From the NCBI GenBank assembly GCA_032358255.1, contig JAULBX010002889.1, positions 62,001 through 126,000 on the forward strand: DNA of 64,000 nt. Direction: 5' to 3'. Source of the stretch: Heterotrichella gracilis. Lineage: Eukaryota; Sar; Xanthophyceae; Tribonematales; Xanthonemataceae. Below the pieces are notes generated by a model, which saw only the letters and a program-made list of their open reading frames with translations, made no database searches and had not been told where the DNA came from. Below are positions 865 through 64,000 of the stretch, piece by piece. Within the stretch, counting starts at the first letter, position 1. Each line of letters opens with the position of its first letter. Position numbers and translations under genes: made by a program.

Positions 865-1545
865 TCGTTCTCAAAGTCGATAGGTGTGCCCCTCAGCAGC
901 TGCATACCCCCTCGGGCACAAGCGTTTACCCATTGCACCCAGGACATTCACACCATGGACTGCGCCTCGGCGTCATCCACAGGGTGCATTGTGCCCCCAT
1001 ATGGTCCTTGAAATGCCCCCTTCCCCATGCCATTCCCGGTCCCTGCCCCCCTCCAGCCCATGCCCACGCGTTACCCTAGACAAAGGTAGCTGCAGGCATG
1101 GTGCCCATGCAGTCGCTTTGTCCAGAACACCGTATGCAGCAGGGAAAACCAACTCCCCCAGGATTCATACCATAGACTGCGCCCCAACATCATCCTCAGG
1201 GTGCATTGTGCCCCCATGCTCCTTCAGAGGCCACATGGCACCCCCAGCCCCTTTCACCCCCTCCCGGCCCATGCCCACGCGTTACCCCAGAGAAGGATAG
1301 CTGCAGGCATGGGTGTCCACGCTGCTGGCTTGTCAGCAAGGCCGCATGCAGCAGAAAAACCGATTACCCAAAATTTTCACACCATGGACTGCGCTCCCAC
1401 ATCGTCTTCAGGGTGCATTGTGCCCCCATGCCCCTTCAGCGGCCACATGGCGCCCCCAGTCCCAGCTTCCACCCCCTCGGGCACATGCCCCACGTACTTG
1501 ATGCGCAGCACCGCCCTGATGATGTACAGCCCACCCACCAGGGTG
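865..1545. repeat. tandem array, ~210-bp unit, copies of the LPP last-exon 3' end
   Basis: Three diverged direct copies of a ~210-bp unit start near 870, 1090 and 1305. Each holds a version of 'accatggactgcgc', then 'gggtgcattgtgccccca'. Only the copy at 1305-1545 is read as the 3' part of the last phosphatase exon (stop at 1379-1377). The other two lie downstream of that stop on the minus strand and look non-coding. A fainter fourth copy lies near 635-700. Confidence 0.75.
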
Positions 1546-3669
1546 CCCAGGTACTCTCCGCCCACCACGTCTGCTGGGTGGTGGATGTGGTCGGCCACGC
1601 GGGAGGCGCCTGTGGGGAGCGAGGGGGGGGTGGTGTAATTACAGAGGGTCATAATGGGTTGAAAACATTGAACCGGTTCAACGGCACCGTGGTACCCTTG
1701 CTCGCGACAACGCTGTTCACCCAGTGACATGCAGGGCAGCAAGTTGCCCATGCGGCATCTGAGCAAGCATCCATGGCTGTGCTCCACGCAGGTGATCATG
1801 CATCACGCACAGTGCTGCCTGCATGCATTGGTTAGGCACACACCCATGCATCACCAGGATGGCTGTGCAGCATAGGATCACGATGGGATGTGTGACAGCA
1901 ACTTCAGGGTTACGGGTATGCACTTCACGGTTTAGGGTGCACGACGATGGACAATGTCACAAAGCAATGTCATTACCTGTGAACCATGCAAACGCCAGCC
2001 AGCCCAGCACCCAGAACCAGGCAAAGGCATGGGCAAGGTCCCACAGCAGGAAAGCAAATCGGCCTGCAAGGAAGGGACAACACTTGTCAGTATTCACACA
2101 AGACTGGTGAGCGATGATACAAAATTGGTCTAGTAATCATTGCCAGTTGGGTCCCAGAGCAAAGCAAATTAGCTTGAGGGGGAAGCGATGGTATTGGTGG
2201 GTAAGAAATAGCTTGTGCACACAACGCCATGCAAATGTGCCACGAAGATGCAGACGCAGAAAAATACTACTAGGGTTTTACAATAGGTTTTCACACTCCA
2301 CCTCACTTTGAACATTATGACGTGGCTCTCACGCAGGTACAGCATCTACTGCATGCAGCCTAAGATGTAGGTGGAAAAAGACAACGCTGCCGTGGCGAGA
2401 AGCAATGCTCTTATATTTCCCTCCTCAACCCACCAGGATTCCATCAGGGTTCCGTTGGGGTTACATTAGGGTTCCGATAGGATTAGGGTTAGGGTCCTCG
2501 CCTCTGAACACCATGACGTGCCTCTCCCGCAGGTACAGCGTCCACAGGATGTATCCAGAGATGTAGGTGGCAAAGCACATGGCCACACTGGCATGGCCTG
2601 ATGGGAAGCTCTTCTTGCCATCCTCAACAAACTTGTCATCGGTGTTGGTGCACAGCGGTTGAATGCTGGCGCCGATGGTGAGCGTGGGGGTGGTGGTGGT
2701 CTCGCTGGTGGGGGGCTGGCAGCGGGCGAGGTAGGCGGGGCGCGGGTAGCCCACGAAGTCGTTGGTGGTCTGCACAGGGAGAAGTGTGTTCATGGAGTAG
2801 GGTTTTCCAGTAGGGTTTCCACCGTGTTGGTTGATTTGGATTTCCAATAGGGGTGTGCTATTGCCCTGCATAAGGAATAGCTGCTATCCTAACATGTAGG
2901 GCACATGCACCCCCCACAGTAACACTGGTATTTTCCACCCAGCTTTCGAGGTTCCATTAGGGTTTCCTGTCACCTATGTGTTGGCCACATACTCAGCAGG
3001 GACACGTGGCGCATGCATGCACGCCAGCAGTAGGGCTTCCTAGGTATCTTCACTAGGGTGTAGGATGCAATCGTGCAATTTACGAGGGGCTGTTATCACC
3101 TGTGTGGGAGACATATTTCCCTGTCTACGTATGTTGCAGCGCGTCTAGCGTTTAGGATACTTGCATTCCTACAGGGTACAACATCACCTGCGTGAGGAAC
3201 AGCACCGCCACCATTGCCCAGATGCCCTGCAGGAACATGTGCAGCGCGCACGCAACACCCGCGGTGGCACTTGGGTGCTTCAGGTAGCGCCGCCCACCCC
3301 ACACCTGGACACATTTACAATCAGTGACTCAGCAAGCTGGTGCTTTTGTGTCATGATTGTTTGTGGTTCCCATTCACGGAAGCATGCCAGGTTGCTGGGA
3401 AAGTAACCCACAGTGTCGTCAAAAGCCTTGCACAACCCTCATACTAAACACCCTACACCCTACACCAGACCCTTGGGTAAGCTTACCTCGAAAGTCAGTG
3501 ACAGCAGCAGCAGGAAGAGGCCTGGGATGACCACCACCACCCAGGAAGGGATGGTGTTGCTTTCCACCGGGTAGGAGATGGTGGCATCGTAGATGTAGAT
3601 AGGAGTGAAGCGCGGGTCCCAGTTCCAGTAAGCAACTGCCACCAGGGCGCCAAAGGGGATGATGAGGTA
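1377..3669 (-). CDS. PAP2-family lipid phosphate phosphatase (LPP), 5' end unresolved
   Basis: Probably an integral membrane enzyme that dephosphorylates lipid phosphates such as phosphatidic acid. Exons on the minus strand, phase-consistent: 3669-3487, 3304-3188, 2769-2502, 2063-1977, 1609-1377 (295 codons plus stop). The first two exons give hydrophobic segments (YLIIPFGALVAVAYW; WVVVVIPGLFLLLL) and the family word YPVESNTIP. The third carries the catalytic motif SFPSGHAS. The last carries SRVADHIHHPADVVGG, matching the SRx5Hx3D motif. The first motif reads TNDFVGYPRP: the RP is present but the usual lysine is threonine. The intron after 2502 appears to be GC-AG (gcgagg); phase only closes with that donor. 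An N-terminal exon is still missing; 5192-5560 is a candidate. Family assignment is firm; substrate is inferred. Confidence 0.87.
2305..2376 (-). pseudogene. decayed echo of LPP exon 2769-2502 (donor-side half)
   Basis: On the minus strand this reads like TYILGCMQ-stop-MLYLRESHVIMFK, against TYISGYILWTLYLRERHVMVFR in the real exon. A stop codon replaces the tryptophan. It sits in the intron just downstream of the exon it copies and includes a GT at the equivalent donor site. Confidence 0.75.
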
Positions 3670-3784
3670 CTGTGAGCAGGGGAGGGGAGGGGTCATGCAT
3701 GGGGATGACGATGGCTGAGCAATGCTTCTTCTTATGTTGTATCTTGTGTATTTTGTGTCAAACCTTCATGAAATTGCATGTTTC

Positions 3785-4295
3785 TGCATTGTAGGTGCAG
3801 ATAAGGGAGAAGCGCGGGTGAATTGCTGTTTAATGCTGTGTTCTGTATCAAAACATTCATAAGAATTGCGTGTATTTGTATTACAGTTACTAACTGTAGG
3901 GGCGAAACTTGGGGCCGATTTCCAATATGGCAGCCACCCGTGCGCCAAAAGGAATGATGAGATACTGTTAGGAGGGGAGAGAAGGGGTCATGTCTGGGGA
4001 TGGTGTTGGGCATTACCCACTGAACTTGTCCGATGAGTGATGAGGTTGCTTCTAGTGTCAAGTTCTGACACAAAATTACAACATCATCACCAATTAAAAA
4101 AGTACAGCCAGGCGATGATGTTCACAGGATGACCAACATCATCGCCTGACACGATGCCTTTCTCTCTTCCTCACAACACGGGATTTCAATGCCATTGTAG
4201 ATGTACAATGGAGTCAAGTGTGGGTCTCAGGTCCCCTATGCAGCTGCCACTGGAGTGCCAAAAGGTGTGATGAGGTATCGCACGGCCACCTACCG
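3785..4295 (-). pseudogene. decayed echoes of LPP exon 3669-3487 (acceptor-side half)
   Basis: At least two clear copies (about 3885-3990 and 4190-4295) and a weaker one (about 3785-3825) repeat the exon segment 3580-3690. They share the words 'gatgaggtac' and 'gccaaaaggaatgatgaga' and the flanking tract that on the plus strand reads gaggggaggggtcatg. Frames are interrupted. They lie upstream of the exon in transcription order. Confidence 0.7.
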
Positions 4296-4299
4296 TGGG

Positions 4300-5190: not shown

Positions 5191-5191
5191 C

Positions 5192-5560: not shown

Positions 5561-5699
5561 GATGACCTGCAGTGAGGCCCTGCACAAGGGAAAGGAAAAC
5601 TGATTAACCCAATGCATGTTTGCAGCGCATTTGCTGACTGCTCTTCCTCAACAAACCCGCCCATGCAAGAGACAGGATCCGTATTTATCCATTTAATTT

Positions 5700-23072: not shown

Positions 23073-23480
23073 TCAGCTGTCAAGGGAACCCCTCTGGCGG
23101 TCAGCCAGCTTCTTGTCTAGCTTCTTGTCTATGCTCTCCAGGGTGGCTTGCATTTCTTTAAGGGTGTTGATCCACCCGTCATGCGTCACATCCAGTGCCG
23201 CCGTTCTGGCCACATATCCCTCCTGTTTACCCGCCACAACCCCCAACCTCCCCGAAATACCCCTTAGCTCCCCCGCAACACTCCCCAGCGTGGTGTCCAT
23301 CGCCTCGAGCCTGTGACTGGTGTCCCGGGGGCTCCCAGCACGGACGGCGTCCGCTTGGCTGTAGCTGCTGGCCACCCCAGAACCGGCGGCGAGGGTCTTT
23401 GTAGCATTTGACCTGCGACCTCTGTGTGGCAGTGCCCCAGTGAGATGACGCTCAGATCTGACGGCTGGTGCGCCAGTCCT
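23073..23480 (-). CDS. C-terminal coiled-coil exon of an unknown protein
   Basis: A minus-strand exon after a CAG acceptor near 23481, with a stop at 23075-23073. The C-terminal ~80 residues have heptad-like spacing of hydrophobics (HRLEAMDTTLGSVAGELRG; NTLKEMQATLESIDKKLDKK), typical of a short parallel coiled coil. The first part is Arg/Ser/Gly-rich. Upstream exons were not found with confidence; 24190-24525 on the same strand is a candidate. No family recognised. Confidence 0.5.
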   Translation of the reverse strand, partial: RTGAPAVRSERHLTGALPHRGRRSNATKTLAAGSGVASSYSQADAVRAGSPRDTSHRLEAMDTTLGSVAGELRGISGRLGVVAGKQEGYVARTAALDVTHDGWINTLKEMQATLESIDKKLDKKLADRQRGSLDS

Positions 23481-24189
23481 GCAACAGAGAACCCACCTCA
23501 AAGTTGGCCGTGGCACATATGGCAAACCCTAATTAAACCCTAAACCCTGGGGGCTGGTGCGGCTTTCTTGCAACAGAGAAGCCAACTCAAGGCTTTGGGC
23601 CATAGCAAATCCTTAACCCTGAACCAACCTCACAAGCTGGCCATGGCAAGCAACAGGTGTCCTGCCACTCTGTGGGTGAAGCGGGTTCCGACATCATTCC
23701 TGCCAAGTATGGCAAGGGTGAAAAACACCTTGTCTGTGCACTCCTTTATGCCCCCCAAGCACTTCACCCCGACAAAATACCGAAGCATAGACTGTGCACC
23801 CAATTTTTGTTCTTCTGTTCGTGTATCAAATAATAAACCCTAAACCCTAAAACCCTAATCCTATAACCCTGAACATAGGCTAGCTGAACCAGTTGCGCGC
23901 CTAAACGGGCTGCTACGGGACCTAGTGCCACCTCCCCTTCGCTCATGAAAGTGGAAAGTGGCTTGGTAACAATTACCAAAAAACGTTGTAACTGTTACCC
24001 AGCAAACAGTGACAAGGGTAACTGCACATGCCATATGCATGCATATGCCATATACCCTTGGCAACTGGTAACACGACCTAGGTAGCCTTGGTAACAAGTG
24101 AAGAGCTTCCTCCAACTCCCTTTCGCTCTGAGCTAGTTTTCATCCTACCCAAAGCCCACTGTAACTTACAGTGCTAGCAACCGTTACCA

Positions 24190-24749: not shown

Positions 24750-25137
24750 CAGTGTTTGCCAGCCCACCTGAGCGGGAGCAGCTGCGCAACCAGCACCCCC
24801 CATCACACAGCACCCCAACGCCCCCCATGCCACACCCACCACCACCGCCCCATCACCCTCACATCGTTGGGGAGCACAGGTGACACAGTGGTCAGCACAC
24901 GATACCCACCACCACCACCGGCCCACCCCCATCACGCACCCCCTCACAGCGACCGCCTACCATTGGGCAGCGGGTCACCGCCCCACCCACACTCTCCCTT
25001 CCCACAGCCCCAATGTAACACGTGGCAGCAAGCCTGTAGCCCTCCCCCCCCATACACACCCTCTCCCCTGCACTCCACCATGGATGCATCCCCTCAGAGC
25101 GCCGATGTGACAGGTGGCAGCGGGTCAGCCTCCCCCC
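24750..25137. repeat. low-complexity CCCCACC region and duplicated last-exon ends of the isochorismatase gene
   Basis: The word 'gccgatgtgacaggtggcag' with 'cgggtcagc' occurs at 25100 and 25147. Only the second copy is inside the exon. Weaker relatives lie near 24960 and 25020. The flank is C-rich and degenerate. Confidence 0.6.
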
Positions 25138-27593
25138 TCACAGCGCCGATGTGACAGGTGGCAGCGGGTCAGCGCGCGTCTCCTTAAACAGGGTGCTGAT
25201 GGCCTTGAAGGAGGGGTACTGCAGGGGGGGGGAAGGGGGGTGGTGGGGGAGGCAAGGGGTTGGGGGGTGGGGCCTTGAGGGAGGGGTACTTCGGACTGAC
25301 GCGCGCTGACCCGCAGGGGAGGGGTGGTGGGCACTAATGGGGGAGCCAGAGGGGAGGGATGACCGCCAAACCTCATGGCAAGTCCCACACACGGATTCCA
25401 AACAATGCTCCTAACATCAAACCCCAATTGCCATGGTGACCCCATACTGGGTCCCCATATGATATCATCAGACGGGCAGTACTCCCACGCCCTCCGAAAT
25501 ACCATCTCAAACCCATAGCATTCTGCCGCAACACCGGCAAACCCCACCCACCTGCCACTCCATCACATGGAACGAGCCAAACTTTTGCAACCCCCAAAAC
25601 CTTTTAAAAATAACCCTACTGATTTTACTTATAGCCCTACCTGCGTTGACCCCATCATCTGGAATGTCGCCATTTCACTGGTGGCCAAAAAGGCCCCGCT
25701 CTGTGCCAGGCGAGTCAGCGCCACCTGGCGGTCCCCCAGGCGCTGTGAGGACACCCCATCAACGATGATGTGGACCTCATACCCTTGCTCTGCAGGCAGG
25801 GGAGTTGGGATGGGGTGGGTTTCAAGGATTTTTGAGGAGGATTTGGAGGGTTTAATTGGGATTTGCGGGGTTTGGAAGCAAGAGTATGTGCGTGGCAAAA
25901 CAGGGTACGGGTAACACATGCGGGCCAGTGGCACATGGCGCTTCCCTCAACCCAGGACACCCCGTCAACGATGATGGGGACCCCTTAATCATTCTCATGC
26001 TGATGGGGGGGTGGCAATTTTGCGATTTCGTGCGTGTGGGGTTTGTGGGTTTACATGCAAGGTGATGGGCTTGGTGGGCGCATGCGGGGAATGGTGTGCA
26101 CAGGCCAGAAGGGGGATACAGCCTTGAACAGGCATTGGTGGGAGCAGACAAATGAAATGTGCCCATCAGAATACGTTAATGAGGGGGTTTGCAGGGCTTA
26201 ACAACGACAGATAGAGTTTTCCTTCGTTTACCGTACATGCCAAGTGCACATGGACTTCCACTGAAAGCGGGCAGGGAAAAGGTAAGGGTTTAGGGTTTGC
26301 GGCTTAGGGTTTAGGGTTTGGGGGCGCACCTATGAGATCCAGTGTGGTCTGGAGCACACACACGTGCGTCTCGATACCCACAATCAGAACCTGCGCCACG
26401 CACATGCGGCCATGCATCAGTGCCCACACATCCTTAAGACAAGCTGTAAGCGCCCACACATATCCTGGAAAAAAAGTGCCTGTTCTCACTATTTTCCTCC
26501 TACCTTTTTCACATGTGCAAGCTTCCCTTGCATGTGGTCTGCCACCTCTGGCACTGCAGGGGGCACACACCAAGCTTTAGGGTTTTGGGGTTCACAGCAT
26601 TTACCCTAATGGTATTCAGGGCGTGCCACGAATTCCATGTGCCAGATGGCGAAAGCTCATGACTTCGGATTTAGGATATTAGCAAGTGCTGATGACCAGG
26701 GTTACAAACCCCAATAGAGTTATCCAGCAGGGTGCCTAGGGTTTTGCTCACCCATCATGCTGAACACGGTCTTGGCCACCACCAATGCGCCAGGTGGCAT
26801 ACACTCATGACCAGAAATTGTGCTTCTTGCACTAGAATTTCACTCACCCAGCGTGACTACCACAGTGTGCTAGGGTTGAAGTAGGGTTTTGCTCAGGGTT
26901 TGCTCACCCATCATGCTGAACACGGTCTTGGCCACCACGGGTGCGCCAGGTGGCAGGTGCTCACTGAGCTCAGCCACAGTGGGTCCTAGGGCTTTAGGGT
27001 ACTGCTCCGTCACCACCACAGGGATGTCCATCACGTGGGCAACGCGCACCTGCACAAGGGGAGAAGAAAAAATGGAATTCAGGTACAAGAGGAGGCAATG
27101 TTTTGTTTTTCAAATGCAAGTACCCAGGACTTGAAAGCTTGCAGGCTCACAATTGGCACAAAGGTTTTTTATGCATACGGTCATTGCCAGGCGGCGCGCA
27201 CAGTGCAAGGGTAAATGCCCGTCTTGCTGCGCCATTCAGTATCACCATTTACTTGAATAACCAATTCCACTGACTGCAAATTCACACAAGCAGCCCACTG
27301 AAGCGTGTGGGATTGGTCCCCACCTTTGCGGCATACCTAAGGTGATGGGCTTTAAGTTGCGCTCCTGGATGCGGCACGCTGTGCAAGGGTCACCATGTAC
27401 CCAAATTAAATTGGATTCAAAACACACAAGGAATTGCAGGGGATCGGTCACAGCCACTCACCATTCGCTTTGCGGTGTCGATCACAGCCGGCATGCCTGC
27501 AATGACGGGCCTGAACCGCTCCTGTATGTCGCACACAAACAGGGCAGTTTCACTGGCAACGAGCTTGCCCAGGCGAGCCATGGCGCCACTCAT
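25138..27593 (-). CDS. isochorismatase-family cysteine hydrolase (ISOC1/2-like)
   Basis: Exons on the minus strand: 27593-27462, 27049-26908, 26443-26330, 25789-25641, 25218-25138; all phases close (205 aa). The three residues of the isochorismatase-like active site are visible: Asp in TALFVCDIQERFRPVI, Lys in GAPVVAKTVFSMM and Cys in VGIETHVCVLQT. TEQYPKALGPTV and YEVHIIVDGVSSQR are family signatures. Length matches the short eukaryotic ISOC proteins. The real substrate of this eukaryotic subfamily is not established, so isochorismate should not be assumed. The start at 27593 sits a few bases after a CAG, so a 5'-UTR intron is possible. No targeting peptide is visible. Confidence 0.92.
25930..25990 (-). 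pseudogene. decayed echo of isochorismatase exon 25789-25641
   Basis: The plus-strand segment 'ggacaccccgtcaacgatga' with its flanks repeats 25742-25790 ('gaggacaccccatcaacgat') and then degenerates. It lies just upstream of the exon in transcription order (acceptor side). Confidence 0.65.
26744..26815 (-). pseudogene. decayed echo of isochorismatase exon 27049-26908 (donor side)
   Basis: 'tttgctcacccatcatgctg' and the following ~45 bases repeat 26899-26955 almost exactly (the end of KTVFSMMG plus the gtgagcaa donor), then decay. It lies in the downstream intron and keeps a usable donor. Confidence 0.8.
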
Positions 27594-27599
27594 GTGGAC

Positions 27600-29585
27600 C
27601 TGCAAGGAGGCATGGCAACAATTAGGGTCTATTTAAGGTACTTTGTGCTTGCCCTAGGGTTTGCGCTAGCACCAAGCTTGCACAGACGAGCCAACGGTCA
27701 CTTATGTGGACCTACGAGGCAGCTTGACACACAAATTGGGGTGTGTTTAGGTATTAGATTTTGTGCATGACACCACAACAGGGTTTGGTAAGTGTGGATG
27801 TCGCAGGGTTTGTGGATGGTAACAGCATGCTTCAGGTGGAATAAAAGCTTGCTGGCCTGGGTGTCTTTAGGGTATTTACTGCACGCCGTAAGGGTCTTGC
27901 TTAGGGTATCCATTGCGTTGTTGGGGAGTGCTTTAAATCGGTGTTTGTTGTGGTACGTCGCTGCTGTGGCCAAGGCGACAGCGGGAGAGACACTATCAAT
28001 GCCACAGCCAAGCCGTGTGTGTGCTGGTATGGGAAAACATTTAGGGTTTGGGTGAGAGCAGGATGCGCTAACAGCTAAGCTGCTGAAGGTGTACACAAAA
28101 AAGGTTAGGAGGTTTTAATGGAATTTTTACTGTCTCTGGAAAGGCATTGTGTCGTATGCGCGCCTAGCAAACCCTGCCAGTGCATGCGTGGGTGCGCGGC
28201 AAGGACCCTTTCGATCCGCGGCTTCGACTTCTCATTTGCAGATGTAATTTGTAATAGCCATGTCTAGGGTGGTCTGCAAGTGCAGGAGCGGGACAGCCTA
28301 GCGGGTCTATGTACGCATGCATGTGCAAGGGTGCATATGCATGCATATGTCGTTTGCGCGTCCATCCAAAGAACAAGGCATAGGCATAACCACAGATATA
28401 GAAACATGATCACCACCTTGCGGTTTCGAGGAGAACCAGAACAGCCTGGCCTTGAAAGGGCCACTCGCCTTCCAACCAACGCCTTGTAAGTTGGCAGTGT
28501 GCTTCCAACCATGCAGCAATGCAGAAGGCTGATTGCAGACCAGAAAGACACAAGCAGCAGGCAAAATCAGAAATTTGCTCCAAGCTTGGGTTTGCTTTGT
28601 CAGTTGCACGGCTGTCGTCGCTATCTAGCTAGCTAAATCAGTTGCAAATTAGCCTAGGGGGTAGTGGGGGCGCAGTGTACTAGGGTTGAGCCTAAACCCT
28701 AACCCTGGTCCATGCAATGCATAGGTCCGACCTTGAAGAGGTTGCAAGCATAAACCCCTTGGTACTCAAAATGCACCCGACATATCGATAACATATGGAA
28801 ACGCACAGCAGCGCAATACAAACCAGCTGCTGGTGTTACTGTTGGCATTGCGGTACAACCCCCGCGCAACCGTTGCAGACCATATGCAAGGCAGGCGCTG
28901 TGGATTATCGCAATGCAGAGGTCAAAGGAAAACACTGCCTATGCATCCCAATCCACTTCCTCTGCATGGCGTCTGCTTCGCAGTGCCCAGAGCTTATTGC
29001 TTCAGCGGGGTTGGTGTTTGGAAGAACGTTGTTGCACATGTAAACAATGCAGACGCAGCCACAAATTTTCCAACAATTTATTTGTGCCAATTTCCAATGA
29101 CCACCCGGTGATTATTGAAAGGACAACATCAGCCCAGGAGGCAAGAGATCACACGCGGGGGCATCGTGATGTAGGATTGCCTTGCCAGGCATTTTGTGGC
29201 TGCCACGCTCAGCGATGAACTACCAACCAGTGTTTAGGGAAAATGCGCTATTGTGCGAGGTGTGCAGCAGATGGCTTGCTATCACAGTAACCCTCTAGCA
29301 GCAGAGCGCCAGCAGCAGAGCATGTGCAAGTGTGACCAGTCCGTTCACTGCTTGGCAATCCCTCTCAGTATATGCTAAAAACCAAGTCTGCTCCATGCCC
29401 ACAAGCGAGACTTCATAGCAGCATATCTACCACCCCATCATGTGTGCACTTCTCAAATGTTTGCAAACTTTGGGGGGGTAATGGCATGTGCAGGCATGTG
29501 CCCAGCCACACCTGGAAGACACTGCTAATTTACCTGCTTTGTATTGCAAAATTACGTGCATGCACACGCAATCTGGGAACAACCA
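27600..29585. other. gene-poor stretch
   Basis: No phase-closing exons found. Includes an ATGCAT/CATATG-rich palindromic run near 28310-28350 and short CCCTAAA-like words near 28690. It separates the isochorismatase gene from a possible minus-strand gene. Confidence 0.3.
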
Positions 29586-32640: not shown

Positions 32641-32939
32641 TCATAATGAATGCCTAGAATGTGTCCCACAGGTAGTCCCCTTTGGCCCTGCCATTGTGGC
32701 CACCACATTCTGCCAACACCCTTTTAAACTGAAATGTTTGATGCTCCCGCTGGTCCTGAAATCCTTTGTTAGGGCTTCAACATATCCTGCCCCCCCCCCC
32801 CCCTCCCCTGTTGCCCAAGCCACTGTGGCCTTCAAACCCTTTGCTAGGGTTGCTGCACAAACTCGCTGGCCCCAGCTGGAACCCAATGTCAGGGTTTCTG
32901 CATGTCGTCGCTGGCCATAAAAAACCCTTTGACAGGGTT
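32640..32939 (-). pseudogene. decayed echoes of the TauE/SafE last exon
   Basis: 32665-32725 ('gtcccacaggtagtcccctt' ... 'ccaccacattctgcc') repeats 32960-33012 of the coding exon. Further diluted copies of 'cagggtttcagcatatcttg' style sequence occur at about 32770-32795 and 32880-32915. They lie downstream of the stop codon. Confidence 0.65.
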
Positions 32940-40719: not shown

Positions 40720-43700
40720 ATGGCGCACAAGGGAGGCACCATGGCGGAGCTTATCACCCCAAACATAGGGGAGATCAGGAACCAGTTCCAGGCTGCTGTG
40801 AGGCGCAATGACCTGGCGGCAGCGAGGAGGGCCCACGTGAAGCTGCTGGAAGCTGGCGCAAAACCCTCGTAAGGGACTCTGAACCCTGCATGAAGCCCTG
40901 TAGTATCCTGACGAGTAATCCCTAGCGTACGCCCTATCCCATGGGCCTGCATGCATGTGCACAGCTTAATACACTACAATAACCTCCCATACCCTGGAGA
41001 AACCCTGCCGAAAGCCCGACCAACCCCAACCCCAAAACCCTAAACCCTAAGCCGCCTGTTGCATATCCCTTGCCACAACTGCTTCCCACTCCTCAGGACG
41101 CAGCACTGCAACACCCTGATCAGCCTGCATGCGCGCGCACGCGACTTTGCCGGGGCGTTTGAGGTCTCAGACCAGATGGATGCGCAGGGTGTGCCCAAGG
41201 ACACATACACCTATGGGGTGCTCATTAACGCATGCGCAAAGGTGGGGAACAACCCTAAACCCTAAACCCTTAGCCATAAGCCGACACCAGGGAGTGGAGC
41301 GGTAGTTCAATAAAGAAAAAAATGAGGGTTTTCTTATGCTTTCGGCGGAGCCTTTCATGTGCCGAAACAGTTAGATGCACAGGGTGTGCCCAAGGACGCA
41401 TACACCTATGGGGTGCTTATCAACGCGTGCGCAAGGGTGGGGAAGTCAAATTATTAACCCTAAAACCTGCACAGCATGGTGGCTCCTGTTCTATGCCATG
41501 TTTTTCAATGCATTGGTCCGATACATTGGCATCAGTCCCACTGCCCTGCTTTGGGGACAAGCATGTGCTTGTTCTCAAAACCTTTACAAATAGTGCCGGA
41601 TGCGGCGAGAAGAAGAAGTAGAAGAAGATGACGCAACGTGTTTTAAATCTTCTTCCTCGCAGGCCGCGCACCCCCCCTACGACTGCCTGCCAGAGCACGC
41701 CCAGCGCGCCCAGGGGGTGTACCAGGAAATGCTGGATAAAGGGGAGGAACCCACACGCATCGTGGTGCATGCGCTCATGGACTGCCAGGTGGGGTTGGCA
41801 TGGGGGTTGAAAAGTTGGGAGGGAATCTTCCATAGTGGGTGGAAATGATGAGGGAGTACCTCAAGGGGTTGCCACAGCCAAGTGCATCGATGCATGCAGC
41901 AGGACCCACCTACCAGTAAGCTTAGCTCAGGGTTCAGGGATACATCATATTACGCCACCCGCCCCCTTTCCCCCCTTCGCAGGTCAAAGCGGGGATGGTG
42001 GAAGGAGCCTTTGTCACTCTCGCCCACATGGTATCCCAGGGCATGGCCTCCAACAACTGGAGCTTTAGCATCCTCGCCAACACACCTTGATCCTGTGTAA
42101 ACCCACATAGGGCTCCAGGTTTTGGGTTCCAAGTGTAGCGTATATGGTCTACATGTTGCACAAAAATCCCCCCCAAGTGCAGGCTAAAGCGGGGATGGTG
42201 GAAGAAGCCTTCTCCACTCTCGCCCACATGGCGTCCCAGGGCATGGCTCCCAACAACTGGACTTTCAGCATCCTCATCAACGCCTGCAGCAGGGCCAAGC
42301 AGCCCTTCAGGGCGCAGGAGGTTGTTGATGTGCTGATGCCGCGAGCCAAGGTGGCCCCCGATGTGGTCACCTGGAACTCGCTGCTGGGTGCTTTTGCACG
42401 AGCGCGGCATGTTGACGGTGCGCGTAAAACCTAACCAAAAATCGTAAACCCTAGAGATTTTGCTTGGCAAACCCCTAAACCCTGCAGCTCCTCAGGGGGG
42501 CAGGAGATGGTACACCCTTTGAACAACCCTGCGGGCCGGGCATGGCCATTACGACAGTCACACACTACATTCATACCCTGCTCCCCCTGCTTCCCCTGCG
42601 CATGCCTATGCCCCCCTGATACCCCTGCATCATACCCCCCCCCCCCCCTCACTCCAGGCGCCTACCACACGTGGCAGCGCATGCAGCGCGCGGATGTCCT
42701 CCCCTCTGAGATCACCATCCGCCACCTGGCAGAGGCATTCTCAGCAAACCCCGAGATGGCAGCGGAGATAGCGCAAGAGGCAAAGGACATACGCCTGCTC
42801 AAGCTGCACCAGCAGGTAAGTTATAAACCCTAAACCCTATATCAAAGACCCTAAGCTCTTAAGTAGAAGGCGAAGGAATTTTGCTTGCTCAAGGTGCATC
42901 AGCAGGTAAACCCTAAGCTCTAAACGGTAACTCATGAAACTCTATACCGGACACAGCAGGATGACCTTAATGACCCAGTAGACCTTCAGCAGTGAGACAA
43001 ATACCTACTTTCCACTCCTCAGGCGCCCCTCGCCACCACCACCACAGCCGCAGACACCCCACACCCCTCCCGCGACAGGGCCCAGCAGTCCCGCACCCGC
43101 ATGGCCAGGTACCGCCAGGTGGACATGGACACATATGACCCCCGCGCAGAGAACGATGCGCCCACCGATCCCCTGTTCTTGGACCTGCATGGCATGAGCC
43201 AATCGGCTGCGCGTGTGGCGGTGCTGCGGGTGAGTGTGCGCTTACTAGATCAATTGCAGGGTTGTGGCGGGTTGTGCCTTGGTTGCACCAGTAAATGTTC
43301 AGGGTTGTGCTTTTGGAACGCCAGGTGGCAGTAGTGGGTACAGGGTTGAGGAGCACAGGGAGGTGTAAGTGACACGTCATCATGTATTAACGTGCGTTGA
43401 AGTGAAAAATACCTTTTTTATTTATTGTGTACAACGTATCATGTATATTGAAATTTCACTTTTCACCACATCCCTCCCCCTGTTTCTCTCAGCGCCTCAA
43501 CTACCTTGTGCTCACCAAGGCCAAGCAGAAGCCACCCACTTTTGCCGAGCTGGCCTGGGGACAGCCGCCATCCTCACTTGCCTCGCCAGGTAACATTCCA
43601 CCCCAAGAAGTGCTCCCATCCCCAGCTGCTTCGGCCACCCCAGGCACCCCCCCTGCCACCCCCCCACATGCTTCCGGTATCGCCAGCTGGCAGGAATATG

Positions 43701-46276: not shown

Positions 46277-49200
46277 GCTTGGAGCTTGGAGAAGGCTCAA
46301 CAGCAGCAACAACAGCAGTCACAGCAGCAGCGGGAGGAGGGGGCTGCCAGTGCACGCTGCTGCACACCCACGGAAGGTATGGCAGGTGAATGCACGGGGG
46401 GGTTATGGCGGTGGTCTACAAGTAGCAGAGGACAGAAACCTTGTGCACTGACTGCTAGCCTGGCGGTACTGCTGCACTTGCACGTCCCTACCTATCTAAC
46501 AAAACAACCAAAAACGTTTCTTCTACTATATCTAACAGGATATGAAAAATTATCTTACTTAACTTGCCCTTTCTGCCTGTAGCAGGTAGCTGCAGTCACC
46601 AGCCCCACCCCACCCCCAAGCAGCCCATGGTGTCCGCCAGACCCCGTCAAACCCAGGTCAGTGGAAACCCTAAACCCTAAACCCTAAACCAGGTCAGTGG
46701 GTTGAGCCCAGCGCCTGTGCAGCCCTGTGGGGACACAGACCCCCCACCCACCCAGGTCTCTGCACACATGCTGGGAGCCACTTGAACTGCACCACACCCC
46801 TCTGCACACTTGCTGCGAGTCGCCTTGCATCAAGAAATTCCATCCCTTCAATAAAAGCCTGTTGCACACTGGCAGCGCACTAACTGGTGTGCTTACTAAG
46901 AAATGCTTTTTCGGTGGAAATCCAGGACCCGCCCGCTGGTGAGCGCTGATGACCTCGATGCATCCCCACCTGGTGGCGATGAGCGGGGATCCCCAGCTGG
47001 GGACGACAGCCGGCGGAAATATGATGACGGCAAAAAGCGGTACAAGTCCCGGGGACCGCCCACCGAGGAGCACCGGCTGAAAATTCAGGCTGCCCTCAAG
47101 GGCCGCAACCTGGGCAAAACCCTAAGCGACGACCACAGGAGGCACGGGCAAAACCCTAAAACCCTAAAACCCTAAAATCTCAAGCAGTGGCCGTAAGAAC
47201 CCTTTGGATGCATAATATACAAGGGCGAGAGGGGGCCTGCGCTCCTTAGACCCTCTGCAACTGTACCTCGTCAGGTCACATCGCAGCGCGCAGCGCCCCA
47301 TTAAACACTAAAGTCTGGGGTGTAAACTCACAGGAGCATTTCCATGGGCATGCGGCGCGTGATGTCGCAGCGCGCGGCGCGGCTCAAGCGCAGCCTTGCG
47401 TCCCAGGGCAAGCCCAAGACGTGCTCCCTGTGCGGCCAAGTTGGACACAACCGACGCGCATGCCCCACAGCAACGCAGGGCCTTGTGGGGTCGCCTGTGG
47501 GCGATGCCGAGCCAGGACCACTGTTGTCACCGCTGTCTGAAGCATGGGTGGCGGGCAGGGTGGAGGGTGGAGGGGAGGGGGAGGAGGGCGTGGGGGGGAG
47601 GGCGCTGAGGAAGGAGCGGGCTGCTGCTGCGCGAGCGCGGCGGCAGGTGCTGGCGGCGCAGGCGGCGGCTTCTCCAGCGCAGGTATGTTACCCGGGTTAT
47701 TGTGGATGTTGTACAACTGTGCAACGAGAAATGGTTATAAATTGCTCAGAAGGAGCACCGGTTATAGTACAAGCATCCTCAATCACGTGACTAATTGAAG
47801 GTACTCGATACATACAGTGCTACTGGAACATACAAGCATCGTCATTCTTGCAGATCTGATCTCAGGGCAGCCATCAGCATGCCCTCTCATCCCATCACCA
47901 CCACCCCACCCCCGCAGGCCGCCTCCGCCTCCCCACCCGCCGCCCGCCTGCGCCGCTACGTGTGTGCCCAGGGGGCAGTCTTATAGCAATACAAAAATGA
48001 ATCTGTCACCCTTTGCACTCCCGCAATCCCACGCTGCCAGCTTTCAAAAAGTTTTGTATCACCCACCCACACCCAGACCCACACCCAGACCCACACCCAC
48101 ATCATCAATACCACCACCATTACCGCAGGCCGCCTCCGAGCCTCCACCCGCCGCCCGCCTGCGCCGCTACGTGTGCGGGCACTGCGGCCAAGCGGGCCAC
48201 AGCAAGCGCTTCTGCCCGGAGCTGCAGGCGGAGAACGCTGCGGCAGCTGCGGCGGCAGCTGTGGCAAAAGCCGAAGATGAGGCTGCCAGATACGCCGCAC
48301 AGGTAGGTAGTAGATGCATGTGCTGCTGGAGACCTGTAAGCTTGCTACAGCGCGTTTCCCCCCCCAATGGTTTTTCCTTTTCCTTTTGCTGGGAATGCCG
48401 ATGGCCATCCGACAAAACACATTTATTTAACTAGAAATGGTTGCACCATTGCACCTCCCTACCTGCGCCATTTCATAGGAATATAACACCCCCCCTGGTG
48501 CATCCTACCCCCAAAACCACCCAACCACTTGACTGACCATTTCTCACTCTGGTTCTGCAGCAGCAGCTTCTGGCTAGGCAGTCTGCGGATCTGGCTACTA
48601 GTTCCGGCAGCCCCCCCGCACCCCCACCCCTCACCCGCCAGGGTCTTCCCGAGCCGCTGCCCACCCAGCCGGAGGAGCTGGTGGCACAGGTTGGGTTTGG
48701 GTTTGTGGGTTTAGGATTTTGTGCTAGGTGGCGCAACCAACCCAACCAGAGGAGCCAGTGACGGATATGAGGTTTGGGGCAACGGCTTGTTGTCGACTTC
48801 TGTGATATGTGTTCCTCAAACCCTTTTGAGAAGAATACCTTTCCTCTAGTAACATGCGCATATTCTTTAAGTAATGCTAGAATTTATTACAATTTATGTT
48901 AATGGTATAAGGTATACCAGTTGTATGCCGTGGCTTGCTGTGATATCTTAAGACCTGCAGTGTATCTTTCTAAGGTATGTATACCACCCACCGTGCAGGT
49001 TGCGGGTGCGATCATACGCGCATGGTGCGCTGGCGACAGGCGGCAACAGATCGAGCTGCCACTACCCTACGGGGCAGCCAACGACAGGGGAGCATGGTTC
49101 GTAACAGACCCTAATGACAGCAATACCCTAATGGCAATGAAGCCCTGAAATGATGGGGACTTTTGCTCGCCAGCGGGTATGCACTGCTCTCATCCTTCCA

Positions 49201-50854
49201 GGGTGGTTTGAACAATGCCAGAAACGAGCTGCTTTTGGCGCAGCATGTGCAATACCTACTGCAATCTGGCTGTAGTGTGCTGGAATGTATGTAAACTAAC
49301 TACCGGTAACTAATCCTCCACCCACACTACCCAATCACGTGCCCCCTCCCCCCTTCTCAGGCCTGGTGGCATTCGCCAGCAGTTCCGCGCCGCTCTGCCT
49401 GTGGTTGAGGCGCTCCTGAAGCAGCTCAAGGCGCATGAGGGGCTGCAGGGCAGGCTGACTGCGGAGTGGCTGGACGAGTCGGACTGCGTAGGTGCGGGCT
49501 GCATGGATATGAATTACAAATACCTGCATGCAAGCAGTACCGATTACAATCACCTGCATACCATTTGTGCCAGTTATAGTACCATGCACTAAACTGGTGT
49601 CTGGCAGGGTTCCAGCTTCCTGTCCTGCCTTCCCTGCTCCCCTCCGCCCCTACCTCCAACCTCTCCCACACCCCTGTCTGCAGGCGCCTGGCAGAGCCCC
49701 ACCCTGGCAGCCGTGCTGTTCCCCACCGCTGACACCCTGTCCCAGCTGCGGTCGCTGGATGGGGACGATGGCCGCCTGGTGCTGCTCATCAACCCTCAGT
49801 GGCAGCTCCAAGGGCAGATAGTGTCGGACTTTGGGTTTGGGGCCTCGGCGCGGCAGGCAGAGGAGTACGTGGCGCTGTTCCGTGAGGTGTACAGCCTGCA
49901 GCGGGTGGCGGTGGCGGGGGACGATGTGTGGGTGCTCAGGTGGGTCTAGGGTTTATGAACCCTATAGGGTTTAGGGGTGGTGTACAGCCTGCAGCGGGTG
50001 GCGGGGGACGACGCGTGGGTGCTCAGGTGAGGGTCGGGGTTAGGGTTTAGGGTTGTGTGCAACAGGCTGATGGTGGTGGTGGCGGGGAATGATGCGTGGG
50101 TGCCCAGGTGGGGGTTGAGGCGCGGGGTGACGTGTGGGTGGTCAGGTTGGGGGGTTACAGGTGTGCGAATTTTTTGCGTGGCTTGACTGTGGCGGAAGGG
50201 GAAATTATGTGGGTGCTCTGTTGGGGGCGTGGGATGGGCATCCAGGTGTGTAAGAGTGCCAGTACACTCTGGAGTTGCAGTGTTGACCTTGCACCCCCAC
50301 TGCGCAGGTGCTACCCCGGCAGCTGGCAGGCCTTTGCCTCCCTGCCCGGCAACCGCCCCCAGCTCCTCACCACCACCCCCGCCCGCCCCACCTACTCCGA
50401 GCTGGCGCAGGTGCTGAAAGCCCTCAAGGGTTCCCGCGCCAGCCGCAGCTGGGTGGACCGAGTCCTTGCGAGGGAGGGGGGCGGTGGTGGTGGCGCGGGT
50501 GGCGCCGGGTGGCAGGCGGGGTACAGCGGCGGCGCCCTAGGGGAGGGTATGCGTCGGCTGGAGGCGATGGAGCGGACTCGAGCGGCTGCGCGGGGCGCCG
50601 AGGCGGCGGATGCGGTGGATCGGCGGCGGGAGCGCGATATAATCACCGGGGAGAGTGTGCGGGACATCAAGCTGGACCCTGTGCTGCAGCTGGCGCGCTG
50701 GCAGAAGGCCATCTCCTCGCTGCCCAACTTTGCCGGCGGAGGGGGTGGAGGGGGAGGGGGGTCGCAGCAGGGGGGGGGCGCCAGGCCTCCGGTGGCGCCT
50801 CCTTTGGACGCTGACCGGGTGCGACCCGATGGGTCAAATGCACCCGCGCCGTGA
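46277..50854 (+). CDS. NUMOD3-like / CCHC zinc-knuckle / DUF1995 protein
   Basis: Exons about 46277-46374, 46596-46656, 46926-47147, 47334-47682, 48129-48302, 48561-48689, 48999-49096, 49361-49491, 49684-49939 and 50308-50854, phases closing. Order: poly-Gln stretch; NUMOD3-like motif (PPTEEHRLKIQAALKGRNLG); zinc knuckle CSLCGQVGHNRRACP; a second knuckle CGHCGQAGHSKRFCP; Ala-rich helix; DUF1995 from VAGAIIRAWCAGDRRQQIEL through WPGGIRQQFRAALPVVEALL and INPQWQLQGQIVSDFGFG; Gly-rich tail. DUF1995 occurs in plastid proteins of plants and algae, including the photosystem II assembly factor LPA3. Knuckles bind single-stranded nucleic acid. The donor at 47148 appears to be GC. Whether two genes were joined here is open; intron phase supports one. 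Gene start not found. Confidence 0.72.
46666..46692. repeat. interstitial CCCTAAA tract
   Basis: Nearly four head-to-tail copies of the plant-type telomere unit in an intron. Similar shorter tracts: 14296-14320, 20455-20475, 23527-23545, 23838-23865, 26286-26320, 41035-41050, 41260-41272, 42826-42838, 47150-47178, 61380-61400. Confidence 0.8.
47914..47972 (+). pseudogene. echo of zinc-knuckle exon 48129-48302 (acceptor side)
   Basis: From 'gcaggccgcctccg' it repeats 48125-48180 (AASxxPPAARLRRYVC), then stops matching before the knuckle. It keeps the CAG acceptor and lies in the upstream intron. Confidence 0.85.
49970..50150 (+). pseudogene. two to three echoes of DUF1995 exon 49684-49939 (donor side)
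   Basis: 'gtgtacagcctgcagcgggt' with 'ggcgggggacgacgcgtggg' at 49980-50030 repeats 49889-49941. A weaker copy (gatggtggtggtggcgggga, atgatgcgtgggtgcccagg) is at 50070-50112, and a faint one at 50125-50145. The first two end in a GT after CAG. Confidence 0.85.
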
Positions 50855-59940: not shown

Positions 59941-59942
59941 AA

Positions 59943-62900
59943 GTGAAGTCACTAGCAGTTGCCCCAACGTGTTCGCTGCAACGCAACATGCTGCCCTCGC
60001 CAAGGCATGGCAACGTCATCACGAGCGCCCCACTGCTCGTGGCCCGCCTCCCCTCCCCCTCGACGACTCCCGCTATTGGGCACCACCACCGGGGTCTTGC
60101 TTCCTACTCACACGTTGGGTCCCGACCACGTACACCATGCTCCGGCGCCCAGCCCCTATCACCCAACCGCGCCAGGCCAGGGGTGTGTGCCAGGAGAGAT
60201 AGAGGCAGTGGCATGCGGGGAGCGAAACTGGCTGTGGCACACGCTGCCAGGCAGGTGGAACAAGACAAAGTGGTGTGGATCCAGACGAACAACAAGGTAG
60301 GATACAATTGTAGCGTAATATAGCTGATTGTACATGCCCACATTGCGCAGCCATATGCATGCATGTGTCTAGCCACCTCTAAGTTGGCATGCATACGGCA
60401 ATCTGCAAACATTCACGCTACACGGCTGAAAACCGTACACTGCAATCTATACCTAGTCACTATTGAGGAGCACTCATGGCGCATCCTATATGCATGCGTG
60501 TCGGGCCCATTTGCATGCATAAAACCATGGACTCGACGGCATGCTTTTGAAAGCCCAGGGCATCACTTTGAATCTAATGCCATTTGTGCGGGGTTTATGT
60601 CGCATTCTATGATTCAAGCATGCCTGTTGTGTATAGCCCACGTAGCCCACATGGTCCACTTGGTGGCCCTCAACCCTATCATACGCGGACTCACCGGATG
60701 CCAAAACCCTCCGGGCGTGTTTCGTCACTCACCTGAGTGTCTGTCTCGCAGTATAGCTTGTGATCACCACTGCGTTGGAGCTGGGCTTTGACACCTTTGT
60801 CTTCCCGGAGGACCAAGGAGGGGGCCAGGCAGCATCCAGCTTGGCCAAGCTGCACGTGCTGCTGCTGCACCCAGATGGCAGGCTGATGAACGACAGTGGT
60901 GATCAGGTGGGGCGTTTTTTCAGATGCATGCGGATACCTTGCATGGGTGACGGTGGCAGGAAACAAGGTGCACAGCACTGTCTACGTCCGGCTCCATTGA
61001 GCACTGCTTAGGGTTCAGGGTTTAGCGTGCAGCTTCCAGCTTGGCCAAGCGGCTCATGCTGCTGCTGCACCCGAATGACAGGCTGTGCAACGACCAGGGG
61101 GTGCAGGTAGGGTGCATGGCATGCAGCAGGGTTTCGTATGTGCCGCGGTGGCGCAAACAAATATGTGCACTTCTAGGCTGTTGGGCTTAGAGTTAAGGGT
61201 TTTAGGCGGACCCAGCTTGGCCAAGCTGCGTGTCTGCTGCTGCGCCTGAATGGCAGGCTGGTCAGCGACCAATGGGAGCAGGTGGGGCTTTAATGAGATG
61301 CATGCTGACACGTTGCATGGGTGACGGTGGCGGGGAACAATGTGCACAGCATCGACCACACCCACTCCGATGAGCACTGGTTAGGGTTTAGGGTTAAGGG
61401 TGTTGGTCACGGGCACTGATCAGGGCTGAGGGTTCAGGCAATTCACTTTGTCTACAGTACCCCCTACACGTACACGCGTATACAGTGCTCTGATGCACCA
61501 TGGCAACCCCCTCAGTACTCCTCCCTCACCGCCGTGTGCCATCGTGTGTGCCTCAGGTGGGCGTGGTGGTGGGTGTGGATGGAAGCACACAGGCAGCGGA
61601 GGCAGCGGCTGCGTGTGCGCCACCTGGCACCGTAGTGGTGTTTGATGCAACTGATTGGCAGGTAGGTGTGGGGGGGTGTGGGGGTTGGTGCGGGTGGGCA
61701 AGTGGGTGGGATGGGTCAAAAATATGTTTGATGCAGAGGACTGGTGTGTACAAGGATGCACTAGACAGGAAGCAGGCAGCGGGTGCCTCATATTGTAATT
61801 GTCATGCTTGTCATAATATTGTAAGGTAATAGCAACTGTAATTGTGAGGGTGGCAAGGCGGTGGGTGTGGGCGGTTGAGAGGGGTATAAAGGAGTACTTG
61901 GTACTCCTATATACTAAGTACTCCTACGCCTAGGAGGACTGCAGGAGGATTGCACATCGCACTTGATGTGCAATCACTGTGCCTACCCCTGCAGGTTATT
62001 CCCGCAGAAAACCTGGTGGCAGCGTGCCAGGGCACAGGCGCCCGGCTATTGGCGGTGGTGGGGGGTGCGGCGGGTGCTGAGGTGATGCTGGGGGCGCTGG
62101 AGGTGGGGGTGGATGGGGTGGTGCTGCGCACAGAAAACCCTAGCCAGGTGAGAGGGAAACCCCTAGCTGAACGGGGGGAAACCATGAACGTGCTATTTGC
62201 ACCCTCTTTCCAGCATCGGTTCAAAATTGAAACTCTGTGTACTGTGGTGACTACGTGATTGTGTACTTATATTTCACGTATTTTTCACGTATTCTGCTGT
62301 ACTGGAAATGATAAAAGTATGACAAGGGGAAAAATTACACAAAATGCGAGAATCTATTGTCTTTCTTTGTTGCCAGCCTTTTCTGTGCACCTCGCAGGTG
62401 CGACAGCTGGCAGAGCACCTTGCGCAGCAATCCCAGCCCCCTCGCATCCATTTCGCAACCGCCCGAGTCACCTCCTGCCGACCGGTGGGGATGGGGGACC
62501 GAATCTGCGTGGATGTGTGCTCGATGATGAGGCCTGGGGAGGGCTTGCTGGTGGGCTCCTTTGCCCGAGGCCAATTTTTGGTGCACTCGGAGTGTGCGGA
62601 ATCCAGCTACATTAACAGTAGGCCCTTCCGTGTGAACGCTGGGCCGGTGAGTGTGCAGCAAACCCAAAACCTGTAGCCCTGTAAGCCCAAACAGAGGGCC
62701 GGTATGGGTGATGGGGGGCAGATCAGTGGGCACGCAACCCTAAACGAAGGGTACTGGTGATAGTAGGTCAAACTGCCAATTTTGACAGCAGTAGGCTTTT
62801 GCCCCCATGTCAAAATTCAGCTACATTAACAGCAGGCCCTTTCGGGTGAACGCGGGGCCGGTGCGTGTGGGGCAAACCCTACACTGTCAGGCCTGAAGTG

Positions 62901-64000
62901 TAAACCCTGGACCGTAATTGGTAGGCCCTTTCGGGTGAATGCGGGGCCGGCAGCAAACCCTAAACCCTGAGTGCCTGAAGCCCAAACCCACCCTGCTGGC
63001 TGATACGAGGCCGAACAGTGTGCAAGCAACCCTACACCAAGGGCAGTAAGATAATTTGGTCCCAAACCAGGGGATTAACTATTATTTGACTTTTCACTCC
63101 CCTGTAGGTCCATTCCTACTGCGTCCTCCCTGGCGACCGCACCGCCTACCTGTCTGAGCTGTGTGCGGGCCAGGGGGTGATGGTGGTGGATGAGCAGGGG
63201 GCGTCCAGGGTGGCGGTGGTGGGGAGGGTCAAGATGGAGCGGCGGCCCCTGGTGCTGGTGGAGGCGCAGACAGAGAACGGCACCAGGTGGGTGTAATGCA
63301 TCTCTAAATTAAAGTGAATTCATTTTTTTTTATCATTTTTGAACGACATGCCGGGGGCGCGCACAGACAGAAAATGGCACCAGGTGAATTGAATGCAATT
63401 CCAAGTCAAGTATATTTTAATCTAAAAATCATGCGACAGGAAATGGCAGCAGGTGGGGTTAATTCTCTTTTTAGTTTACCTGTAATTCACTTGTAAACCA
63501 ATTTCCTATACAATGGTGGTGGCGTGCGCATACCAGAAGTGGTACCAGGGGGTCAACGCGTTTCCCCATAGCACCATAAATTGTACTAAAAACCATACCA
63601 GTTTTGGGTAATACAATGTAAACCTACGGTTGCCCAGCCTATTGTGAGGCCTCTTCCCCCGCCTGTAGGCACAGCATCATGCTCCAGAACGCAGAAACAG
63701 TGCGCTTGGTGGGGCCTCAAGCACACAAGGAAACCCTTCCACGGTCCATGGGAACCCTTCCCCAGGGTTGCATCACAGCCCTTGCCAGCTCAGCAGCAGC
63801 AGTGCCAATTGGCGCCAGCTCAGAAAGTGCAGCGCCGGGTGGCACTGATTCACCTGTGGCAGTGCCAGGTGGCGCCAGCTCGGAAGCTGGAGTGGCGCCC
63901 TGGCGTGCCATTTCTGTGTCCCTGCTCCAGACGGGTGACCTGGTGTATGTGTATGAGCAGACTGCTGCTCGGCATACAGGCATTAGCATACAGGAGATGC
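59943..64000 (+). CDS. type II (archaeal-type) 3-dehydroquinate synthase, 3' end outside window
   Basis: Exons 59943-60296, 60757-60906, 61557-61661, 61995-62147, 62398-62646, 63108-63286 and 63669-64000+ close in phase (508 codons seen). Signatures of DHQS II: KVVWIQTNNK, TTALELGFDTFVFPED, IPAENLVAACQ, GVDGVVLRTENPSQ, PVGMGDRICVDVCSMM, GEGLLVGSFARGQFLVHSE, SRPFRVNAGPVHSY, YLSELCAGQGVMVVD, VGRVKMERRPLVLVEA and LQNAETVRLV. In archaea this enzyme makes 3-dehydroquinate from an amino-deoxy-heptulosonate precursor, not by the AroB route. The ~90 N-terminal residues are basic and Ser/Pro-rich, like a plastid transit peptide. The last exon has a ~60-residue Gly/Ala/Ser insertion (AVPGGASSEAG) before SLLQTGDLVYVYEQ. 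Only a few residues should lie beyond the window. Confidence 0.9.
61020..61290 (+). pseudogene. two echoes of DHQS exon 60757-60906 (donor side)
   Basis: 61028-61115 and 61208-61285 repeat 60834-60912 ('cagcttggccaagctg', 'gcaggctg...aacgac', 'gcaggt'). Both keep a GT after CAG. In the first, 'ggtgcaggtagggtgcatgg' continues into intron-like sequence shared with 60906-60945. Confidence 0.88.
62812..62970 (+). pseudogene. two echoes of DHQS exon 62398-62646 (donor side)
   Basis: 62816-62885 ('agctacattaacagcaggcc', 'ctttcgggtgaacgcgggg', 'ccggtg') and 62918-62962 repeat 62604-62665, with the donor preserved in the first copy and lost in the second. The intron word 'ggcaaaccct' is copied too. 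Confidence 0.88.
63355..63465 (+). pseudogene. two short echoes of DHQS exon 63108-63286 (donor side)
   Basis: 'cacagacagaaaatggcacc' (63363) and 'gcgacaggaaatggcagcag' (63432) repeat 'cgcagacagagaacggcacc' (63266), each followed by AGGTG. Weak third member near 63527 (cataccagaagtggtaccag). Confidence 0.75.

Follow-up and report, generated by a model that had tools for sequence, protein, structure and literature searches.

The 64-kb window analyzed here is the whole stretch of 64,000 nucleotides (nt) from position 62,001 to 126,000 of contig JAULBX010002889.1 in an assembly of the xanthophycean alga Heterotrichella gracilis (GCA_032358255.1), and it carries predicted genes for LPP (PAP2), isochorismatase, rhodanese, TauE, PPR, DUF1995 and DHQS II proteins. 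In several of these genes the first-pass annotation had described partial direct copies of exon ends, with their splice sites, in the neighboring introns or flanks; we call such copies echoes. The LPP, isochorismatase, TauE, PPR, DUF1995 and DHQS II genes that it named do carry repeat pairs, and their products belong to the expected Pfam families; the rhodanese gene has no pair in the main set for the window. The association of the echoes with telomeric repeats, absent from that annotation, is their most telling feature, and we consider below what kind of DNA repair might have produced both.

Our sample comprises the window and nine 10-kb pieces of the same assembly (L023 to L031), 154 kb in total. 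Repeats were sought by self-comparison of the window at E ≤ 1e-3, and later with telomere-like runs masked, at bits ≥ 34 and within 1 kb; the main set holds the 104 of 106 masked pairs with an offset below 600 nt, the 2 pairs with offsets ≥ 600 nt being left out. Cluster counts are reported alongside pair counts because pairs inside arrays are not independent. Exons were called by a gene finder self-trained on the sequence alone, which yielded 22 models, 159 introns for the intron tests, and a predicted splice consensus of CAG/GTRNG at donors and YGCAG/G at acceptors (slash at the junction). As it at times calls an echo as an exon (in L027, and at window positions 61216 and 49988), junction counts are slightly inflated. 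Eight of eight proteins or pieces submitted from among the 22 models matched Pfam as expected (PAP2, isochorismatase, rhodanese, TauE, PPR, DUF1995, DHQS and ILVD_EDD), and the best solved relative of a predicted GAPDH on L031 is a chloroplastic GapA, which, taken with the plant-type telomere repeat, would point to a green alga. Echo-bearing loci in the window, followed by two non-genic pairs, are given with their coordinates and strand:

DHQS II, 60829..61379, plus strand: exon end and donor at 60829-60912, with copies at 61029-61112 and 61212-61379 in the next intron and a telomere-like run between copies.
DHQS II, 62600..62950, plus strand: exon end and donor at 62600-62655, intron echoes at 62814-62869 and 62921-62950, and a telomere-like run past the donor.
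DHQS II, 63264..63397, plus strand: end of the last predicted exon at 63264-63300, echo at 63361-63397.
DUF1995 gene, 49886..50115, plus strand: exon end present three times with telomere-like spacers, the second copy called as an exon by the model.
DUF1995 gene, 47893..48175, plus strand: exon start and acceptor copied upstream (86%, offset 210 nt); the model reads the first copy, too, as an exon.
PPR gene, 41173..41444, plus strand: exon end and donor, with an echo 195 nt downstream and a telomere-like run past the donor.
PPR gene, 41979..42281, plus strand: exon start copied 200 nt upstream of the main exon.
PPR gene, 42778..42906, plus strand: exon end and donor, then an AAACCCT run, then the echo.
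TauE gene, 33014..33521, minus strand: start and acceptor of the last exon at 33014-33082, upstream echoes at 33288-33347 (92%) and 33463-33521 (88%).
TauE gene, 32661..33010, minus strand: segment near the end of the last exon at 32956-33010, downstream echo at 32661-32714 (76%).
TauE gene, 35581..35863, minus strand: exon end and donor at 35768-35863, echo at 35581-35675.
TauE gene, 34335..34523, minus strand: exon segment at 34491-34523, echo in the adjoining intron.
Isochorismatase gene, 26740..26955, minus strand: exon end and donor at 26896-26955, sharp-ended echo at 26740-26799 (93%) across a 96-nt spacer.
Isochorismatase gene, 27553..27753, minus strand: exon start, with its echo upstream.
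Isochorismatase gene, 25748..25982, minus strand: exon start segment, upstream echo (93%, 29 nt).
Isochorismatase gene, 24994..25165, minus strand: last predicted exon end, downstream echo (36 nt, 81%).
LPP (PAP2) gene, 3584..4002, minus strand: exon start, upstream copies at 3786-3819 and 3897-4002.
LPP (PAP2) gene, 2306..2628, minus strand: exon end and donor, downstream echo at a 196-nt offset (73%).
LPP (PAP2) gene, last exon and flank, 639..1490, minus strand: array of direct copies with a main offset of about 212-219 nt.
Non-genic pair, 120..213, no strand assigned: 32 nt, 91%, telomere-like spacer; the same structure off predicted exons.
Non-genic pair, 23463..23590, no strand assigned: AAACCCT-rich spacer.

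Self-comparison of the window returned 37 same-strand and 2 inverted pairs; all 37 same-strand pairs lie less than 3 kb apart, and neither inverted pair does. Over the 154 kb the same cut-off gave 81 near same-strand pairs against 2 near inverted ones, three dinucleotide shuffles of this sequence gave no pair in either orientation, and with the runs masked there were 106 same-strand pairs against 4 inverted. These figures bear out the earlier description of same-strand exon-edge copies in flanking introns, and the graded decay claimed for them is seen in copy identities from 67% to 98%. Pairs that touch an exon make up 72 of 104 (69%), and clusters 51 of 70 (73%); the window's share is 41 pairs in 29 clusters, of which 27 and 19, respectively, touch an exon. 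An exon-touching pair is present in 16 of the 22 gene models, and an echo stands at 55 of 318 predicted splice junctions (31 donors, 24 acceptors), so that the earlier wording, 'almost every multi-exon gene', holds for most models but is a little strong. Clusters occur on nine of the ten stretches examined, which come from several contigs. The tenth, L029 (10 kb, three gene models), lacks repeat clusters altogether, which implies that the process is uneven along the genome; the window itself has no cluster at 50.2-60.8 kb, a region that includes a multi-exon part of one model.

Donor-side copies were said to lie downstream of the exon and acceptor-side copies upstream, and this rule is kept in 54 of 58 scored pairs (35 on the donor side and 19 on the acceptor side), the rest of the 104 being exon-free (32), exon-touching by both copies (12) or unscored (2). 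The four exceptions are an echo called as an exon (window 61036/61212), two pairs in one gene with low-complexity repeats (L025) and a pair at L028 5510/5676. We attribute the polarity to splicing: as long as the first of two donors, or the last of two acceptors, is the one in use, a duplication across that site does no harm. Exon and echo differ by 11.4%, 12.9% and 23.3% at codon positions 1, 2 and 3 (60 pairs), and this 1:1:2 pattern is that of a neutral copy facing a constrained exon, itself changing mainly at third positions.

Beside the copies, the seven 7-mers with the strongest enrichment are the full set of rotations of AAACCCT. When runs were masked ahead of the pair search, 48 of the 99 spacers proved to hold an (AAACCCT)n run; random segments matched to them gave 8.6 ± 2.8, and no more than 20 in any of 500 draws. 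Under such masking, however, a run belonging to the tandem unit would also show up as spacer. A run lies between the copies in 32 of 72 clean spacers; by spacer length the figures are 10 of 11 (12-40 nt), 12 of 19 (40-65 nt) and 10 of 42 (longer). In the unmasked sequence the density of runs is 8.4% in those parts of the copies that lie outside exons and 4.4% in spacers, as against 1.2% elsewhere (permutation p 0.004). A word search for another filler motif in run-free spacers found no clear one, the best word being CCCCCC (z 6).

The runs also crowd predicted donors. Across 155 introns their density is 11-12% at 12-30 nt past the donor, 7% at 30-40 nt and 1.4-3.2% from 60 nt inward. In the first 40 nt the telomeric heptamer class occupies 8.6%, compared with at most 1.5% for each of 19 other classes of the same composition, some of which, among those listed, also show a raised ratio of near to deep density at a far lower density. 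The 33 donor-proximal runs comprise 17 G-rich, 15 C-rich and 1 unclear, and the presence of both orientations favors a DNA-level event over an RNA signal. Genome-wide, the donor-like CAGGTGNG is followed by a telomeric 12-mer at 0-25 nt in 271 and 299 cases (two orientations), against 77 and 64 at 60-85 nt, and a C-rich run precedes the acceptor-like TGCAGG in 475 near cases against 207 far ones (one orientation); these counts include overlapping matches within a single run and sites that are not truly splice sites, and some of the matches are themselves arrays (e.g. C75:85520/85701/85807 and C23:72994/73106/73218). The whole assembly holds 1573 exact telomeric 18-mers, chromosome ends included, and the reversed control none. 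The runs in the 48 spacers are telomeric repeats at non-terminal sites, which is what defines interstitial telomeric sequences (ITS), and the direct target duplication that occasionally flanks ITS is found here as well.

We propose, with somewhat better than even confidence, that the echoes were left behind, time and again, by local, error-prone repair of staggered breaks close to exon-intron junctions, often with telomeric filler. A pair of nicks, one in each strand and roughly 20-150 nt from each other, would give a staggered break; filling in and rejoining of both ends would duplicate the stretch between the nicks in direct orientation, and a short telomere-like filler would often be left between or beside the copies. 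Of the copies of a donor-spanning unit, the first would keep its function and the second would be a harmless part of the intron; of the copies of an acceptor-spanning unit, the last would function and the first would become intronic. The spare copy would then decay at the neutral rate while its exon twin stays conserved. Repair with two-ended fill-in is suggested by copies that are on the same strand, local and often sharp-ended, and that share no element other than the telomeric filler; local, direct, same-strand copies are an expected feature of tandem duplication at staggered breaks.

That one ongoing mechanism lies behind the echoes had been proposed from the first inspection, with slippage or error-prone repair among the candidates. 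A recurrent mechanism is likely, since the copies are same-strand, local, polar, centered on junctions beyond the null expectation and spread over several contigs. Error-prone repair is the best fit: a number of young copies have both of their ends sharp and an unrelated or telomere-like spacer between them, which plain slippage would not give. Other young pairs are complete tandem units. Among young pairs, the copies are adjacent in some (e.g. L023 5568 and L028 2668) and spaced in others. Tandem duplication with a unit equal to the offset, as the sole form, is contradicted by the young sharp-ended pairs with unrelated spacers. A nucleosome-length unit was also considered and rejected: offsets in the window looked clustered near 200 nt, but those of the larger set are broad, with humps near 90-120 and 180-230 nt.

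Telomere-type end processing, by telomerase and CST-Pol alpha, may be involved. CST is a telomere complex, so that in our reading one end-processing route could leave both the duplication and the telomeric run. A stronger version, which we regard as doubtful, is that telomere-end machinery (telomerase with fill-in of the CST-Pol alpha type) routinely repairs transcription-time breaks at exon-intron junctions and leaves filler and a spare exon edge, such that introns grow and gain decoy splice sites. A reason for breaks to fall near splice sites would belong to the conjectural part of the proposal.

Several observations weigh against repair of staggered breaks with telomeric filler. No telomere-like run is found within the pair or 20 nt around it in 36 of 72 exon-touching pairs. 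In clean spacers, the share with a run is 23 of 33 at offsets of 50-125 nt, 6 of 32 at 125-235 nt and 3 of 7 above, and this weaker association at larger offsets means that a second route may exist. The signature of telomerase priming is not seen, the G-rich run being nearer the 5' copy in 16 cases and nearer the 3' copy in 16 (n=32), and the purity of the run is uncorrelated with the age of the copies (rho 0.12, p 0.5, n=32). A point in favor of the proposal is that, with runs masked, the median extent of similarity is 43 nt on the exon side but 8 nt past the donor (28 crossing pairs), and 38 nt on the exon side but 12.5 nt before the acceptor (16 crossing pairs); the short intron-side extents are, however, partly a masking effect, and unmasked alignments often reach deeper (2 to 206 nt). 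In mammalian ITS, target duplication is a minority outcome of about 4.5-16% in the data excerpted from the two comparative papers (PMC2246262; PMC7215372). Finally, among the 20 simple pairs that hold an inner run, 11 have another run immediately outside one of the copies, as though the run belonged to what was duplicated.

This last arrangement is what might be seen if the runs pre-existed beside splice sites as fragile or stalling sites at which ordinary tandem duplication nucleates, the runs being the cause and not a by-product. We judge this account unlikely, although it survives better than the other alternatives. Telomere-like sequences are break-prone, according to the cited portion of one report (PMC11626172), and donor-proximal runs are present in introns without pairs too, 12 of the 33 carrying no echo flag. 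Exchange between runs would leave a run on all three sides of a pair, yet none of the 20 simple pairs has this structure; the preference for exons persists in run-free pairs (36 of 54), and the account leaves the donor-proximal placement of the runs unexplained.

Random tandem duplication, with purifying selection and slower decay of the exon partner alone mimicking a focus on junctions, we consider improbable. Selection does account for the polarity and for the absence of exon-exon pairs (0 of 101), and duplications are also found outside predicted genes (20 of 104 pairs). We simulated this process by placing duplications at random, removing those that damage coding sequence and letting the rest decay (4000 events at each of four age limits). 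Decay was modelled simply, and the lengths of the units were those seen in pairs with ≥ 86% identity; the share of exon-touching pairs was then 15-17%, against the 69% of pairs and 73% of clusters observed, and random placement of 250-nt units reached only 35.5% before decay. Switching off the low-complexity filter left intronic pairs unchanged (12 and 12). Survivorship therefore does not fully explain the junction focus, and the junction-centered nature of the duplications, as first described, stands.

That the echoes are functional alternative exon ends or selected splicing decoys is very unlikely. Retention might be read from the 19 echoes of 23 that still have GT and the 13 of 16 that still have AG, but these rates are roughly the neutral expectation at 12% divergence, and the coding positions of the extra copy show no constraint, with mismatches of 11-13% at positions 1 and 2. 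Since both measures match neutral decay, the echoes look like relics and not spare exons, and consequences of their decoy splice sites are unsupported.

Three further explanations have little to recommend them. In the creation of introns by tandem duplication of an AGGT-bearing exon segment, the intron is one unit, and the model predicts an intron length equal to that unit and matching intron ends. It resembles our case in that a tandem duplication involves splice sites, and CAG is indeed favored before GT at exon ends and G as the first base of exons; in contrast to its prediction, 1 of 159 introns, against 0.8 expected, has donor and acceptor surroundings whose in-register likeness exceeds the 99.5% null. 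At the sensitivity used (ungapped, 20 nt on each side) this refutes intron gain for most introns, and as an origin of the echoes we find it barely plausible. Transport of exon fragments by a dispersed mobile element or introner would suit the sharp ends of some copies, but is scarcely to be believed when all 37 same-strand window pairs lie within 3 kb (inter-locus matches being uncounted, this applies to the window and single pieces) and none of the 4 inverted pairs touches an exon. An assembly artefact, with alleles collapsed or misjoined, is made most improbable by the graded identities, the spread over nine of ten stretches and a constraint that is seen in the exon partner but is absent from the echo.

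Plant work by Schiml, Fauser and Puchta in 2016 reportedly deals with small tandem duplications that arise at staggered breaks. In mouse and human cells, CST-guided fill-in by Pol alpha at 3' overhangs leads to small tandem duplications (PMC8355091), which are similar to ours as local direct duplications of the overhang at paired-nick breaks; there the breaks were induced, and the cited part of that paper describes neither telomeric filler nor a focus on splice sites, whereas many of our copies are spaced. Telomeric stretches have been inserted at double-strand breaks in primates, rodents and horse (PMC2246262; PMC7215372). As in the echoes, such an ITS is a short telomeric stretch at a break away from the chromosome end, where the target is at times duplicated in direct orientation, for which the horse paper invokes staggered breaks. 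Unlike in mammals, as far as the cited passages go, direct duplication of about 20-150 nt is common here and the runs crowd splice sites, while the human intronic share is compatible with random insertion. Rogers and Bendich (2025) describe direct repeats near intron splice sites and tie them to break repair (PMC11782384). Their repeats share with ours the position near exon-intron borders and the link to repair, but, in the portion cited, they measure 4-30 bp and flank the intron as an insertion, whereas here the exon edge is copied into the interior of the intron and intron ends are unlike in register.

The statement in the first-pass annotation that no named description exists needs qualification, as tandem duplication at staggered breaks and telomeric insertion with target duplication are both already described. 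Their combination, junction-centered duplications with telomeric filler, was not found among the listed titles and abstract openings of open-licence papers, which is no proof of absence. The constituents are known kinds of repair scar; their density, their focus on splice sites and their telomeric partner set the echoes apart from these.

Some features of the sequence stand apart from the echoes. The predicted LPP gene span contains a 1.65-kb direct duplication (window 7380-8927 and 9067-10666, 72% identity), far larger than the exon-edge units, and an exon-free pair of 155 nt at window 13675-14248 (95% identity, 265-nt spacer) is among the youngest copies. An imperfect inverted repeat at window 4632-4803, with 77-nt arms that are 75% complementary and 18 nt between them, is the longest among the three inverted pairs listed. 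No match to the DHQS II region turned up in a plasmid collection that was searched for its relatives. CATGCA/TGCATG is about 5.9 times over-represented relative to base composition in the window and L023 to L031. Contig C1 of the assembly (G000, 894 kb) has 35% GC in a sampled 200 kb and is poor in local repeats, with 5 near same-strand pairs and no inverted pair; it is probably from another organism, in which case the assembly would be a mixture.

The echoes link three topics that are usually studied apart, namely intron growth, small tandem duplications and internal telomeric repeats. If breaks do concentrate at splice junctions and are patched in a telomere-type manner, this genome would be a natural recorder of the positions of genic breaks, and the process would be a mutational source of decoy splice sites. 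In the cited part of the horse and human ITS paper, the authors find an effect of intronic telomeric repeats on splicing worth testing, and this alga would be a good place to ask whether such repeats affect splicing.

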